From positions 1 through 5,033 of the forward strand of contig JALGZO010000633.1 of the NCBI GenBank assembly GCA_025774865.1: a stretch of DNA of 5,033 bases. Reading direction: 5' to 3'. The notes beneath the pieces were generated by a model. It ran no database searches and was not told where the DNA came from. It worked only from the letters and a program-made list of their open reading frames with translations. The translations under genes and the position numbers were made by a program. Below are positions 1-5,033 of this stretch, in pieces. Position 1 is the stretch's first letter, and every line of letters starts with the position of its first letter. Source of the DNA: a bacterium. Lineage in GTDB: Bacteria; ARS69.

Positions 1-13
1 ACCGACGAGGTGA
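1..13 (+). CDS. Possible 3' tail of an upstream gene ending in a GTGA overlap
   Basis: Only the last three codons and the TGA stop (11-13) of this reading frame lie in the window, so the product cannot be identified. The reason to suspect a gene is its position: the stop shares the GTGA quartet at 10-13 with the GTG start of the kinase. The next two junctions also overlap, by TGATG and ATGA. A four-base overlap would fit an operon with coupled translation extending left of the window. A chance TGA is equally possible. Confidence 0.3.
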
Positions 14-1146
14 GCAAGGAGGCTATCGAAGCGGTTCTCAAGATCGGAAAAGGCGACATCGCAGCCGACCAGCGGAACCGGATCGATACCGTGCTCAAGG
101 AGCACGGCGTGCGCATGGAGAAGACGCGGCTGCGCCCGATGGCGGTCCGCTCGGGCGGCGACCCCGAAAGTGAGCGTTCGGGAGGACGCATGTCGATCAT
201 CGAGCCGGAGGGGCGATCCGTCCCGCCGGCCGCCGCGCCGCGGCGCCCCGCATCGCCGGAACAGCCGGTGGAGGCCCCCGCCGCGGCCGCGAGGCCGTCG
301 GCTGAAATCCATGCCGAGGACATCACGGAAGGATCGGTCCTGGTCGATCGTTACCGCGTGATCCGGAAGGTCGGCCAGGGCGGCTTCAGCTCCGTGTTCC
401 TCGTCGAGGACGAGATGATCTCCGAGCCGGTGATCATCAAGGTGCTGAGCCCGCACCTGTCGGCGGATGAGAGCATCAACCAGCGCTTCGTCCAGGAGCT
501 GAAGCTCACGCGGCGGATCAGCCACCCGAACGTCATCCGGATCCACGAACTGTTCGAGGTCGGCCGATCACGGGCCATCTCGATGGAGTACTTCGAGAGT
601 GACGACCTGGGGGACGTCATCGAGAAGGAGCATCGGCTCGACTCGCGACGCGTGGTCACCCTGTGTCAGCAGGTCTGCCGGGGGCTCGACGCCGCGCACC
701 AGACCGGCGTGATCCACCGCGACGTGAAGCCCGCCAACATCCTGGTGGGGGCCGGCGACGAGGTGAAGATCGTCGACTTCGGGCTGGCGGCGGTCACGCG
801 CGAGGCGGAGAACCGGTTGACCCGTACCGGACATCTCGTCGGAACGCCGCACTACATGGCGCCGGAGCTCATCCGGGGGGAAGAAGCCGACGACAGGGCC
901 GACCTCTACTCCCTCGGCGTCCTCATGTACGAGATGCTCTCGGGAGAGCCTCCGTACGACGGCGACAATCCGATGAACATCCTGTTCCGGCACCTCGACG
1001 GGGACGCCACTCCGCTCTCGCGGCTCGCACCCGACGTAGCCCCCGCCCTCGAGCAGGCTATCCGGCATGCCATGAGCCTCGACCCCGGCAATCGCCCCGC
1101 GACGGCCGCAGACTTCTTGCGGGAACTGGACGAGGTCACGTTCTGA
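10..1146 (+). CDS. Soluble Hanks-type serine/threonine protein kinase
   Basis: A cytosolic protein kinase that transfers the ATP gamma-phosphate to Ser/Thr on unknown targets. Numbered from GTG 10 (378 residues), it shows a glycine loop GQGGFSSV (122-129), ATP lysine K144, helix-C glutamate E163, the HRDVKPAN catalytic loop (236-243, D238), DFG (256-258) and APE (284-286). It is an RD kinase, and its activation loop has T271, T273 and T279 at the spacing of T171/T173/T179 in mycobacterial PknB, so autophosphorylation is likely. The chain stops at the end of the kinase domain, with no membrane helix or sensor domain. Residues 1-60 are charged and probably helical and match nothing I recognise; about 68-98 is a Pro/Ala-rich linker. 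The frame stays open to the window edge, so the start could lie further left. GTG 10 is preferred because it forms a GTGA overlap. ATG 190, behind GGAGGA, is an alternative giving 318 residues. The stop overlaps the downstream ATPase start, implying shared expression. All catalytic residues are present. Confidence 0.93.
   Translation: MSKEAIEAVLKIGKGDIAADQRNRIDTVLKEHGVRMEKTRLRPMAVRSGGDPESERSGGRMSIIEPEGRSVPPAAAPRRPASPEQPVEAPAAAARPSAEIHAEDITEGSVLVDRYRVIRKVGQGGFSSVFLVEDEMISEPVIIKVLSPHLSADESINQRFVQELKLTRRISHPNVIRIHELFEVGRSRAISMEYFESDDLGDVIEKEHRLDSRRVVTLCQQVCRGLDAAHQTGVIHRDVKPANILVGAGDEVKIVDFGLAAVTREAENRLTRTGHLVGTPHYMAPELIRGEEADDRADLYSLGVLMYEMLSGEPPYDGDNPMNILFRHLDGDATPLSRLAPDVAPALEQAIRHAMSLDPGNRPATAADFLRELDEVTF
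181..186 (+). promoter_or_regulatory. Shine-Dalgarno-like GGAGGA before an internal in-frame ATG (190)
   Basis: GGAGGA lies three bases before ATG 190, which is codon 61 of the kinase frame. This is the strongest ribosome-binding-like match in the first gene, though the spacing is short. Used as a start, it would give a kinase that lacks the unrecognised N-terminal segment but keeps the linker and the whole catalytic domain. The codons before it keep strong third-position G/C bias in the same frame, so the upstream segment looks translated. I therefore treat this as an alternative or secondary start. Confidence 0.3.
1132..1136 (+). promoter_or_regulatory. Ribosome binding site for the first PilT-like gene
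   Basis: GAGGT, a direct match to the anti-Shine-Dalgarno core, lies nine bases before ATG 1146 and inside the last codons of the kinase gene. It fixes the ATPase start at 1146. The same frame is open back to 663, but that stretch is only an out-of-frame reading of the kinase, and the protein from 1146 begins exactly where PilT-family proteins begin. Confidence 0.7.
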
Positions 1147-2255
1147 TGCCGCGTATCGACGCGTTCCTGAAGATCGGCCGGGAGCAGGGATGCTCGGACA
1201 TCCACTTCACGGTGGGGCTTCCCCCACTCGTCCGTCTCGACGGCGACCTCGTGCCCCTGAAGTACCGGGAGTTGACGACCGAGGAGACCCTTTCGCTCGT
1301 CAACGAGATCATCACCTCGGCGCAGAAGAAGGACTTCGACCAAGCGGGCTCCGTCGACCTCTCGTACCACTCGGAGGAAGTGGGTCGATTCCGGGTCAAC
1401 CTGTGCAAGCACGCGCGCGGCGTCGCCGCAATCTGCCGCGTCGTCCCCGAGGAACCGCCCCGGCTGGCGGATCTCGGGCTCCCTCCCATCGTGCGCCAGT
1501 TCACCCGCCTCAACTCCGGACTCGTGCTCGTGACCGGATCGTCGGGCACCGGAAAGTCGACGACGCTCGCGGCCATGGTGGACGACATCAACCGCAGCCG
1601 GAACCTCAACGTCATCACGCTGGAGGATCCCATCGAGTTCGTCTACCTGAGTGAGACGTCTCTCGTCGTGCAGCGTGAGGTCGGAACGCACGTCCATTCG
1701 TTCCGCGACGGTCTCCGAGCCGCGCTCCGCCAGGACCCGGACGTCATCCTCGTCGGCGAGCTGCGCGATCAGGAGACGATCTCCCTCGCGATCGAGGCCT
1801 CGGAGACCGGTCATCTCGTCTTCGGGACACTGCACACCCGGGGGGCCGCTCAGGCAATCGACCGCATCGTCGACTCCTTCCCGGCCGAGGGTCAGGCGCA
1901 GGTCCGCACGACTCTCGCCGACAACCTGAAGGCGGTTCTCGCCCAGGAGCTCGTCCGGACGACGGACGGTCGCGGCCGCCGCGCCGTCGCCGAGGTGCTC
2001 GTGGTAACCCCGGCGATCGCTCAGCTCATCCGCGAGAACCGATCCTTCCAGATCCCGAGCACCATGGCGACCGGCCGCCGCCTCGGGATGCAGCTCATGG
2101 ACCAGGCGCTGCTCGATCTCGTCTCCGCCGGCTCGATCGACCCCGACGAAGCGTTCTTGAAAGCACTCGACAAGCGGGAGTTCATTCCCCACGTGACTCG
2201 CATGGAGCTGATCGACATGGTCGGCGCGCCGGCGCCCGCGGGAGAGGCGTCATGA
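1146..2255 (+). CDS. pilT: PilT-family type IV pilus retraction ATPase (first of two paralogs)
   Basis: A predicted hexameric motor of the PilT/GspE family that hydrolyses ATP at the cytoplasmic base of a type IV pilus to disassemble pilins. In its 369 residues the PAS-like N-terminal domain shows SDIH (17-20) and RFRVN (81-85). The RecA-like domain has Walker A GSSGTGKST (131-139), an Asp box TLEDPIE (158-164), Walker B DPDVILVGELRD (197-208, catalytic E205) and a His box GTLHTRG (227-233, H230). Walker A fits GxxGxGKST but departs from the usual PilT GPTGSGKST. AIAQLIRE (290-297) resembles the AIRNLIRE motif important for retraction in Pseudomonas PilT. Length is close to PilT (about 345) and PilU (about 380); the last 20 or so residues form an Ala/Pro-rich tail. 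It overlaps the kinase stop by one base and the next gene by four. The family is certain; the symbol is family-level, since PilT versus PilU orthology needs a tree. Confidence 0.93.
   Translation: MPRIDAFLKIGREQGCSDIHFTVGLPPLVRLDGDLVPLKYRELTTEETLSLVNEIITSAQKKDFDQAGSVDLSYHSEEVGRFRVNLCKHARGVAAICRVVPEEPPRLADLGLPPIVRQFTRLNSGLVLVTGSSGTGKSTTLAAMVDDINRSRNLNVITLEDPIEFVYLSETSLVVQREVGTHVHSFRDGLRAALRQDPDVILVGELRDQETISLAIEASETGHLVFGTLHTRGAAQAIDRIVDSFPAEGQAQVRTTLADNLKAVLAQELVRTTDGRGRRAVAEVLVVTPAIAQLIRENRSFQIPSTMATGRRLGMQLMDQALLDLVSAGSIDPDEAFLKALDKREFIPHVTRMELIDMVGAPAPAGEAS
2241..2247 (+). promoter_or_regulatory. Ribosome binding site for the second PilT-like gene
   Basis: GGAGAGG lies four bases before ATG 2252, or seven if GGAG (2241-2244) is the pairing core. 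It sits within the last codons of the preceding ATPase gene. With the ATGA stop/start overlap at 2252-2255 it supports coupled translation and sets the start at 2252. Confidence 0.6.
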
Positions 2256-3322
2256 GCCGCATCAACACGTTCCTGGAGCTCGTGGTTCGCCAGGGGGGAT
2301 CGGACCTCCACGTGGTCTCGGGCCTCACGCCGCGGGCGCGGATTCTCGGAACGCTCGAGCCCATCCGGTTCCGGGAGCTTTCGTCGGAGGAGATCCAGAG
2401 GATCCTCTCCGAGTTCATGACCGAGGACCAGCGCCGGAAGTACTCCGAGGACAAGCACGTCGACTTCTGCTACATCGTTGACGGACTCGGGCGGTTCCGG
2501 GTCAACGTCTACCGGCACATGCGGGGAATCGCTGCTGCGTTTCGCGTGATCCCGACGCAAGTTCCCACGATCCAGGATCTCGGCCTGCCCCCAGTCCTTG
2601 CGAATTCCGTCTCGACCCGACACGGACTCACCCTCGTGACCGGCCCGACCGGCTCCGGCAAGTCCACGACGCTCGCCGCCATGGTGGATCACATCAACGC
2701 GACGCAGAAGGGGCACATCATCACGATCGAGGATCCGATCGAGTTCATCCACGAGTACCAGAGCTCCGTGATCACGCAGCGCGAGGTCGGCGCTCACGCG
2801 GAGAGCTTCGCGGAAGCGCTCAAGCACGCGCTGCGCGAGGACCCCGACGTCGTGCTGGTGGGCGAGATGCGTGACCTCGAGACGATCCAGCTGGCCCTCA
2901 CGGCGGCGGAGACCGGCGTGATGGTCCTGGGCACGTTGCACACGAACGGGGCGGTGCGATCGATCGAGCGCCTGATCAGCGTGTTCCCGGCCCGAGTCCA
3001 GGAACAGGTGCGCTCCGTTCTCGCCGAGTCCCTCCGTATCGTCGTCTCGCAGCAGCTCGTCCGCAAGGCGGACGGCTCGGGGCGGATCGCCGTACCCGAG
3101 ATCCTCATCAACAACCAATCGTGCGCTTCCATGATCCGGAGCGGGAAGACGCACCAGTTGCCGTCGGTGATCCAGGCGGGGGCGCGTGTCGGCATGCAGA
3201 GCCTCGACGCCCAGCTGGAAGAGCTCGTTCGCAAGGAAGTGATCGGGGGCGAGGAGGCGTACGAGCGCGCCATCGACAAGACGAAGTTCGAGCGTTACCT
3301 GGTCGAGGAGGCCGCGGTTTAG
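2252..3322 (+). CDS. pilT: PilT-family type IV pilus ATPase (second of two paralogs)
   Basis: A second predicted hexameric pilus ATPase of 356 residues. It has SDLH (17-20) and RFRVN (81-85) in the N-terminal domain, a canonical Walker A GPTGSGKST (131-139), an Asp box TIEDPIE (158-164), Walker B DPDVVLVGEMRD (197-208, E205) and a His box GTLHTNG (227-233, H230). Every motif has the same residue number as in the upstream ATPase, so the two genes align without gaps, at about 47% identity by hand count. The core is closer to textbook PilT than its neighbour, but the AIRNLIRE position is degenerate here (SCASMIRS, 290-297). It could therefore be the PilU-like accessory motor, or the main motor with a variant C-terminal contact. 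The start overlaps the upstream stop as ATGA. The TAG stop lies in the loop of a hairpin. No pilin, PilQ or PilM genes are visible, so the pilus assignment rests on family membership. Confidence 0.94.
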   Translation: MSRINTFLELVVRQGGSDLHVVSGLTPRARILGTLEPIRFRELSSEEIQRILSEFMTEDQRRKYSEDKHVDFCYIVDGLGRFRVNVYRHMRGIAAAFRVIPTQVPTIQDLGLPPVLANSVSTRHGLTLVTGPTGSGKSTTLAAMVDHINATQKGHIITIEDPIEFIHEYQSSVITQREVGAHAESFAEALKHALREDPDVVLVGEMRDLETIQLALTAAETGVMVLGTLHTNGAVRSIERLISVFPARVQEQVRSVLAESLRIVVSQQLVRKADGSGRIAVPEILINNQSCASMIRSGKTHQLPSVIQAGARVGMQSLDAQLEELVRKEVIGGEEAYERAIDKTKFERYLVEEAAV

Positions 3323-3337: not shown

Positions 3338-5033
3338 CTAGCCCACGCCGCCGCCCACCTGCGCCCGGATCCGCTGAAAGCGAGGCTCGGATCTCAGATT
3401 GTCGACCAGCGGCTCGACACCGAGGTACAGAACCGCCTCGGATCGCTCCTCGTAGGCCTTCTCGAGCCAGTCCAGGGCTCTCTCCCGGTCCTTGAGACCG
3501 GCGTAGACCGCGGCCGTGTAGAACGCCGGCACGTACCTCTGCGTCGCCAGATCGGCCAGTTGCTCGACGATCGCCAGAGCCCCGGCCGAGTCGCCGCTCG
3601 CTCCGTAACAGCCTCCGATTCCCGCGATGAAGGCAGGGCTCTCCCGCGACACCGCCCGTCCCTTCTCGAAGGTAGCCAGCGCTTGGGTGAACCTGCCCTC
3701 TTGCAGATGGACCATCCCGTAGACGAGAAGCGCGGGCAGCGACATGGGGTCGAGCTCCAGCGCTCGCCGAAAGTACCGTGCGGCCTCGTCATGGTCGCGC
3801 TTGTAGTAGAACAGACGCCCGAGAGAAGCGTGGATGAGCGGCGAGAGCGGATCGATCTCCAGCGCGACGCTCTGGGCGGCGATCGCCTCGTCGAGTCGGC
3901 CCCGGGTCGCGAGATAGAAACCGTACCACTGGTGCGCGGTCGCGTAGCCGGGATTGAGCTCGATGGCCTTCCGGAAGCCCTCCTCCGCCTCTCCCCAGTT
4001 CCAGTCGATGTTGTGTCGGATGTGGGCCATCGCCGTCTGAGCTTCCGCCGAATCCTCGTCGATCTCCAAGGCGGCCTGCGCCGCGGCGCGGGCGAGCTTG
4101 ACCGCCTCTGTCGGTCGCATCACGTCGAACCCGATGGATCCCAGCAGCAAGAAGCAGTTCGCCAGCTCCGCATGGGCCGAGGCGAAGGCCGGATCCTCCC
4201 GGGCGGCGAGCTCGAAGTGCTCGATCCCCGAAGCGAGCCCGTCCGGGGTTCTTCGACCCATGAAATGTCGTCCCTTGAGATAGGCCTCGTAGGCGCGCGG
4301 ATTCACCGGGACCGCCCTTCCCAAGCGGTTCTGCTCCCCGGGGGTCAGCACCGCGCGCACCTGGTGGGCAACGGTCTTCGCCACATCGCCCTGCAACTTC
4401 AGAATGTCGACGAGATCATGCTCGTACTTGGCGGCCCAGATGGTCCTCTCCTCGCGGGCGTCGACCAGCTGCAAAGTGATCCGGACCTTCTCCCCCGAAC
4501 GAAGCACGGCTCCGCCAACCACACCATCCACCCCCAACTCCTCCGCTATCTCGGGAAGCAGCTTCCTCGTTCCCTGGTAGTGCATCGCCGATGTTCGAGA
4601 GATCACGCGCAGCGATCTGATCTGGGCAAGATCCATGATCAACAGGTCGGTCATCCCGTCGGCGAAGTACTGCTGCTCCGGCTCCGACAAGTTCTCGAGC
4701 GGTAGGACCACGATGGATCGAATGGGCTCGAGGGCCGGTGGCGGCCTCAGGAATTCCTGCCATAGATGCTTGATGTCCGGCGCGAAGACCGCCAGAAGGC
4801 CGACCGCGGCCGCGATCACCGCCACCGCGGTCTTCCGTCGGCGTGAGCCGAGAAACGGCGCATCTCGCGACGCGGCCGTCGATCGACGTTCGTCGATCCG
4901 CCGAAGGGCGGCTTCCAGCTCCTTGGCGGACTGAAATCTCCGACCCGGACTCTTTGCCAGGCACTTGAGGATGACCCGCTCGAGATCCGAAGGGACATCG
5001 GGGTTCAATGCGCCAGGCCGCTCTGGTGTGCCA
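3338..5033 (-). CDS. Transmembrane Ser/Thr kinase with TolB-N-like and TPR domains (3' part, start outside window)
   Basis: The C-terminal part of a receptor-type kinase; the frame is open to 5033 and the gene starts beyond it. TTG 5008 is not a real start, because the codons before it read as kinase sequence. Numbering from 5008 for convenience (556 residues), 5-38 is the end of a kinase C-lobe with the subdomain XI pattern CLAKSPGRRF. RRRK (56-59) precedes one membrane helix (60-77), which puts the kinase inside and the rest in the periplasm. Residues 96-223 form a TolB-N/FlgO-like domain of the type found in COG5616 proteins, with VVLPLENLS, YFADGMTDLL and LRVISRTS. Residues 236-523 hold about eight TPRs; those ending at P353, P387 and P421 are exactly 34 residues apart. 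The TPRs should mediate protein contacts; the signal is unknown. The catalytic residues are not visible, so activity cannot be judged. It converges on the PilT operon with a 15-base gap. Confidence 0.9.
   Translation of the reverse strand, partial: GTPERPGALNPDVPSDLERVILKCLAKSPGRRFQSAKELEAALRRIDERRSTAASRDAPFLGSRRRKTAVAVIAAAVGLLAVFAPDIKHLWQEFLRPPPALEPIRSIVVLPLENLSEPEQQYFADGMTDLLIMDLAQIRSLRVISRTSAMHYQGTRKLLPEIAEELGVDGVVGGAVLRSGEKVRITLQLVDAREERTIWAAKYEHDLVDILKLQGDVAKTVAHQVRAVLTPGEQNRLGRAVPVNPRAYEAYLKGRHFMGRRTPDGLASGIEHFELAAREDPAFASAHAELANCFLLLGSIGFDVMRPTEAVKLARAAAQAALEIDEDSAEAQTAMAHIRHNIDWNWGEAEEGFRKAIELNPGYATAHQWYGFYLATRGRLDEAIAAQSVALEIDPLSPLIHASLGRLFYYKRDHDEAARYFRRALELDPMSLPALLVYGMVHLQEGRFTQALATFEKGRAVSRESPAFIAGIGGCYGASGDSAGALAIVEQLADLATQRYVPAFYTAAVYAGLKDRERALDWLEKAYEERSEAVLYLGVEPLVDNLRSEPRFQRIRAQVGGGVG

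Follow-up and report, generated by a model that had tools for sequence, protein, structure and literature searches.

Gene Organization of the Locus

The window, by which we mean the whole stretch of DNA analysed, is 5033 bases long and makes up the entire contig C637, one of the 785 contigs into which a draft genome of 4.7 Mb is divided. A comparison of contigs showed that its first 114 bases are identical to the end of contig C566. When C566 and the window are joined, there is a single open frame for 800 amino acids, which starts with an ATG at C566:4500 and ends with the stop at window position 1146, the first nucleotide of the window belonging to codon 420. The features are:

1..1146, + strand: 3' part (codons 420-800) of a gene encoding a HEAT-repeat/Ser-Thr kinase (HEAT-kinase), assigned from the exact 114-base overlap, the open joined frame, and the full-length homologue P0005 of a related genus
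C566:4500-5870: 5' part of the HEAT-kinase gene, from the contig overlap
352..1101, + strand: PknB-like protein kinase domain of the RD type with the activation-loop threonine present (Pfam PF00069, E 9e-56)
1144..1148, + strand: TGATG stop/start overlap between the kinase and PilT1 genes, read directly
1146..2255, + strand: module PilT1, a PilT-family ATPase of 369 amino acids (TIGR01420, 429.8 bits; modT1 clade, support 100/100)
2252..2255, + strand: ATGA start/stop overlap between the PilT1 and PilT2 genes, read directly
2252..3322, + strand: module PilT2, a PilT-family ATPase of 356 amino acids (TIGR01420, 447.8 bits; modT2 clade, support 100/96)
C566:3946-4491: FHA gene, whose product has a C-terminal hydrophobic segment, ending 8 nt upstream of the HEAT-kinase gene

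The two overlaps lie where the initial annotation had placed them. The stop codon of the kinase (TGA, 1144-1146) shares one base with the start codon of PilT1 (ATG, 1146-1148), while the start codon of PilT2 (ATG, 2252-2254) overlaps the PilT1 stop (TGA, 2253-2255). Short gene overlaps are frequent in bacteria, and by themselves these are thus weak evidence.

The same annotation described an intact, stand-alone soluble RD kinase lacking a sensor domain. The catalytic residues are indeed intact, as detailed below, but the gene is cut by the contig edge and does not start at GTG 10. A complete 378-residue soluble kinase starting there is ruled out, as the frame runs on upstream into C566. The apparent absence of a sensor domain results from the contig edge having cut off the N-terminus; the joined protein of 800 residues contains a HEAT solenoid and has an FHA partner. 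The join is supported by the genome of a related genus (G002), where a single contig carries the genes for FHA, HEAT-kinase (808 amino acids), PilT, and PilT in this order. Read further upstream, the G002 contig again has the order of the window's genome (H1-like, BMC-like, FHA, HEAT-kinase, PilT, PilT), so that contamination or a wrong joining of the contigs is unlikely.

A BMC-domain-like protein (L009, 3158-3811, + strand; 18.5 bits, below the cutoff) is encoded upstream of the FHA gene, and both this protein and an adjoining histone-H1-like basic protein are found in the genome of the window and in G002. On the opposite strand of the window, positions 3338-5032 contain an open-ended frame, the 3' part of a gene for a different protein, in which TPR repeats and a hydrophobic segment are accompanied by a kinase-like remnant at the C-terminus. 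This frame is convergent with the operon, 15 bases separating the stop codons, and G002 has a similar gene close to its module.

The HEAT-Kinase

Residues 1 to about 450 of the HEAT-kinase consist of HEAT repeats (Pfam HEAT_2, E 4e-53), which are known as protein-docking surfaces. The structure predicted for the G002 protein (seven sequences, mean pLDDT 75.9) has a helical solenoid to about residue 453, then a low-confidence linker (457-529) and the kinase domain. In the PDB, the kinase part is matched best by PknB structures, the top entry being a PknB-substrate (Gar...) complex. The Gly loop, the lysine, the αC glutamate, and the HRD, DFG, and APE motifs are kept in 33 of 33 homologues, the sole deviation being one F-to-Y substitution in DFG, and the activation-loop threonine equivalent to T171 of PknB is invariant in all 33 kinases. 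By its fold and by the lysine, HRD, DFG, APE, and activation-loop threonine, the window protein is a Hanks-type, PknB-like Ser/Thr kinase with predicted activity.

The protein is not a PASTA kinase of the PknB/Stk1 type. It scores 291.7 bits against NF033483, through the kinase part only, compared to a cutoff of 450. The combination of a transmembrane helix and extracellular PASTA domains is absent, the N-terminus being made up of HEAT repeats and the protein ending after the kinase domain. Matches obtained with PADLOC (PD-T4-6, mad6, and others) are generic to kinase domains and were set aside.

The Two Motors

The two genes following the kinase had been assigned to the PilT family, and both products score well above the TIGR01420 (PilT/PilU) cutoff of 319 bits (430 and 448 bits). 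The Walker A, Walker B, and His-box motifs are retained in the module PilTs. A maximum-likelihood tree of 97 PilT-family sequences, with 32 rows for module PilT1 and 31 for module PilT2, displays the two as separate well-supported clades (100/100 and 100/96). Each contains the window protein together with sequences from G002, from G555, and from Gammaproteobacteria, while PilT/PilU paralogues from the same genomes are placed outside both.

The canonical retraction motif AIRNLIRE, found in the canonical paralogues, is absent from the window proteins; PilT1 has AIAQLIREN and PilT2 has CASMIRSGK. This region is altered in the module PilTs in general, and most so in PilT1. Since the C-terminal motif of modT1 departs from AIRNLIRE, the module motors may have no role in retracting the main pilus. 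PilM, a marker of type IV pili, was found in 14 of 14 genomes tested, which makes it plausible that each of them has a type IV pilus. In one genome the PilM match (G428:C1:3298038-3299058) is in two pieces in overlapping frames, maybe due to a frameshift or a sequencing error.

Distribution and Conservation of Gene Order

When the HEAT part was used as query against 84,980 species genomes, 13 loci were found: the G002 record and 12 records from Gammaproteobacteria, many of them labelled Chromatiales. All 13 display the order HEAT-kinase, PilT, PilT wherever the contig is long enough. With a kinase profile built from seven full-length proteins, 47 of 369 evenly drawn genomes of Gammaproteobacteria were found to encode the kinase, or about one in eight. 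In a broad bacterial sample it was present in three of 386 genomes, the window's own among them. Within the window's phylum, two of five genomes encode it (protein query), and in the phylum of G555 it is found in two of 80, both from one family.

The initial annotation had suggested searching other genomes for the order kinase-pilT-pilT, and this order recurs. A PilT gene lies directly 3' of the kinase gene in 40 of the 40 homologous loci that extend past the kinase stop, with a spacing of -4 to +135 nt. The commonest junction among them is the one-base (-1) stop/start overlap seen in the window. These loci span two phyla and a third lineage. Overall, the gene order is retained in a candidate phylum, in a second phylum, and across Gammaproteobacteria, and the HEAT-kinase gene adjoins the same motor pair in bacteria of at least three phyla.

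The association is also seen genome by genome. Using a modT1 profile, module PilT1 proteins score at least 544 bits and every other PilT in the set at most 458. By this measure modT1 is present in 45 of the 369 gammaproteobacterial genomes and, after odd cases had been checked, all 45 also have the HEAT-kinase; none of the 369 has modT1 without the kinase. The two genes are neighbours on the same strand in 42 of the 45. A contig break separates them in G256, and the kinase and the PilT pair are on different contigs in G436 and G233. Another odd case is G279, where the kinase is cut off at a contig edge. Three kinase-positive genomes are without modT1: G224 lacks any module PilT and its kinase is divergent and interrupted by an in-frame stop, the gene in G355 contains a run of N, and the contig in G382 is 3 kb long. 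Fisher's exact test gives p = 1e-54 for the co-occurrence, a value uncorrected for shared ancestry.

Absence of the kinase beside the same motor pair in close relatives, which the initial annotation named as evidence against a link, was not observed. The relatives G001 and G004 are without the kinase, and in both the nearest PilT is a singleton outside the two module clades. G001 is only 67% complete, and its lack of the kinase is thus weak evidence. Near the singleton PilT of G004 (L047) there is an aspartyl-protease-like gene.

Because the gene order is kept across lineages and the kinase and motor genes co-occur in both directions, it is strongly supported that the kinase and the tandem motors constitute one functional unit, in agreement with the shared role first suggested from the overlaps.

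Neighbouring Genes

The genes around 33 module loci were clustered and scanned with selected Pfam models. An FHA gene is found in 24 of the 33 neighbourhoods. Genes for an FHA-GAF-HD_5 (HD-GYP-type) protein are present in 15 and for a PP2C-type phosphatase in 13, and many Gammaproteobacteria have these two as neighbours of the module. In G555 a single HD_5-PP2C fusion protein is encoded directly downstream of PilT2. The window genome encodes kinase and FHA together, and no PP2C was seen beside its module. One gammaproteobacterial clade and L061 have no adjacent FHA gene; in two members of this clade a cyclase-like protein with an FHA-like C-terminus (by sequence and a weak profile match) is encoded two genes onward. 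A full writer-reader-eraser set is thus not universal, as the adjacent FHA gene is missing in some loci and the PP2C and HD_5 proteins are each found in fewer than half. The tail of the FHA protein contains a threonine motif in 30 of 31 proteins, EPTMF[IVL] or ETTMFV in 27 and TTVLS in three.

Other neighbours were also observed. A protein of about 156 residues with an LWVHPEGRV motif and a weak DUF6812 match is encoded directly 5' of the HEAT-kinase in Gammaproteobacteria (21 of 33 loci, e.g., L060 9509-9982). In L155 and L158 an aspartyl-protease-like gene is found 3' of PilT2, followed by one for a cyclase-like protein with an FHA-like C-terminus.

Comparison with Known Systems

One of the closest parallels is the threonine phosphorylation pathway of type VI secretion systems (T6SS), where the PpkA kinase, the PppA phosphatase, and Fha are encoded together with the machine under their post-translational control (PMC5995506, PMC3953482, PMC3224232). 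In the module, too, a Ser/Thr kinase, mostly with an FHA reader and in 13 of the 33 loci with a PP2C phosphatase, is encoded beside a molecular machine that it may control. However, the machine genes of the module are PilT-family motors, its kinase has HEAT repeats instead of the PpkA architecture, and HD-GYP-type proteins are found nearby. No T6SS gene was recognised in the clusters around the 33 loci by sequence reading and the selected Pfam scans.

The module also resembles the PknB-GarA and OdhI FHA switches of Actinobacteria in having a PknB-like kinase domain and a small FHA protein whose short tail bears a conserved threonine, and its activation-loop threonines are at positions matching those of PknB. 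In contrast to GarA and OdhI, the tail threonine is C-terminal and not N-terminal to the FHA domain, the kinase is without PASTA domains, and the partners are motors rather than metabolic enzymes. The likeness to the GarA mechanism is an analogy.

The motors share with the PilT/PilU retraction ATPases of type IVa pili (TIGR01420) a full family match, the Walker A/B motifs, and the His box. They differ in forming two clades outside PilT and PilU, in their altered AIRNLIRE region, and in being encoded with a kinase. To our knowledge, SpkA of Synechocystis, named by the initial annotation as a precedent, is not encoded with pilT genes. SpkA is a Ser/Thr kinase needed for normal motility, and the precedent holds for that point only; a HEAT-repeat or motor-pair arrangement is not described for it (PMC4390875).

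Proposed Function and Alternatives

On balance we slightly favour the view that the module genes encode a threonine-phosphorylation system of the writer-reader-eraser kind, centred on an additional pair of PilT-type motors, its biochemistry and motility output being inferred. The gene content suggests that a dedicated pilus-motor pair is probably under threonine-phosphorylation control in these cells. The following mechanism may be proposed, by analogy both with PknB-GarA and with the way in which PpkA, PppA, and Fha control type VI secretion (PMC5995506, PMC3953482). A cytoplasmic kinase, in which a linker connects a HEAT-repeat N-terminus, probably serving for docking, to a PknB-like catalytic domain, would be produced in step with both ATPases. 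It would autophosphorylate its activation-loop threonine, where the FHA protein could dock as a phosphothreonine reader. The kinase would in turn phosphorylate the conserved threonine in the tail of the FHA protein (EPTMF[IVL] or TTVLS). How active the motors are, or whether they are recruited to the pilus base, would then depend on the phosphorylation of the FHA protein and/or of PilT1/PilT2. The PP2C phosphatase that many members encode would remove the mark, and the HD-GYP-type domains might tie the switch to cyclic-di-GMP.

The strongest alternative, which we consider rather unlikely, keeps the genes as one unit and reverses the direction of the signal. The motors would then not be kinase substrates but the input to a kinase/FHA/phosphatase/HD-GYP-type circuit sensing the state of the motor or pilus, for instance as a surface sensor. 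The HEAT repeats could provide the docking surface, the FHA and GAF-HD_5 proteins would be signalling outputs, and a search at the thresholds used yielded no Ser/Thr position that is kept in modT1 or modT2 and not in canonical PilT, so that an obvious dedicated phosphosite was not found. There is no decisive counterpoint to this model, as the overlap of motor and kinase genes suits both directions.

It is less probable still that PilT1 and PilT2 are PilT-derived ATPases of another machine, for secretion or DNA traffic, which the kinase controls in place of pilus retraction. The gammaproteobacterial genomes examined carry a separate PilT/PilU pair in tandem, both module motors fall outside the canonical clades and have an altered AIRNLIRE motif, and a role in DNA-uptake traffic has been proposed for PilT1 of Geobacter (PMC5065972). 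However, the Walker and His-box motifs are retained, the TIGR01420 scores are far above the cutoff, PilM is found in every genome tested, and among the recurrent neighbours around the 33 loci no other gene for secretion was recognised. That an ordinary orphan kinase happens to lie beside pilT genes in one draft genome could be imagined from the richness of this genome in kinases and the frequency of short overlaps, but such chance adjacency is refuted by the conserved adjacency in 40 of 40 loci and the two-way co-occurrence in 369 genomes.

Implications for Pilus Motor Control

Type IV pilus motors are known to be directly controlled by PilZ/FimX, by cyclic-di-GMP, and by chemosensory systems with histidine kinases. 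Histidine kinases and cyclic nucleotides are discussed in a 2024 review of the control of pilus assembly, in which the words 'serine' and 'FHA' do not occur (PMC11656802). No published description of the HEAT-kinase/PilT/PilT arrangement was found in the open-access full-text literature, subscription papers being outside the scope of the search. We tentatively suggest that the module might be an undescribed motor-control cassette, mobile or anciently inherited. In that case a HEAT-docked kinase would act together with an FHA reader of phosphothreonine, a PP2C eraser, and the turnover of cyclic-di-GMP to switch a dedicated second PilT1/PilT2 motor, possibly of mixed hexamers.

If this is true, the cassette would provide the first case of type IV pilus motors with an integrated threonine-phosphorylation system. 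As the operon holds one kinase, one reader, and two motors, concrete tests are possible. The retention of a Ser/Thr kinase gene beside a dedicated PilT pair across phyla points to an overlooked layer of control.
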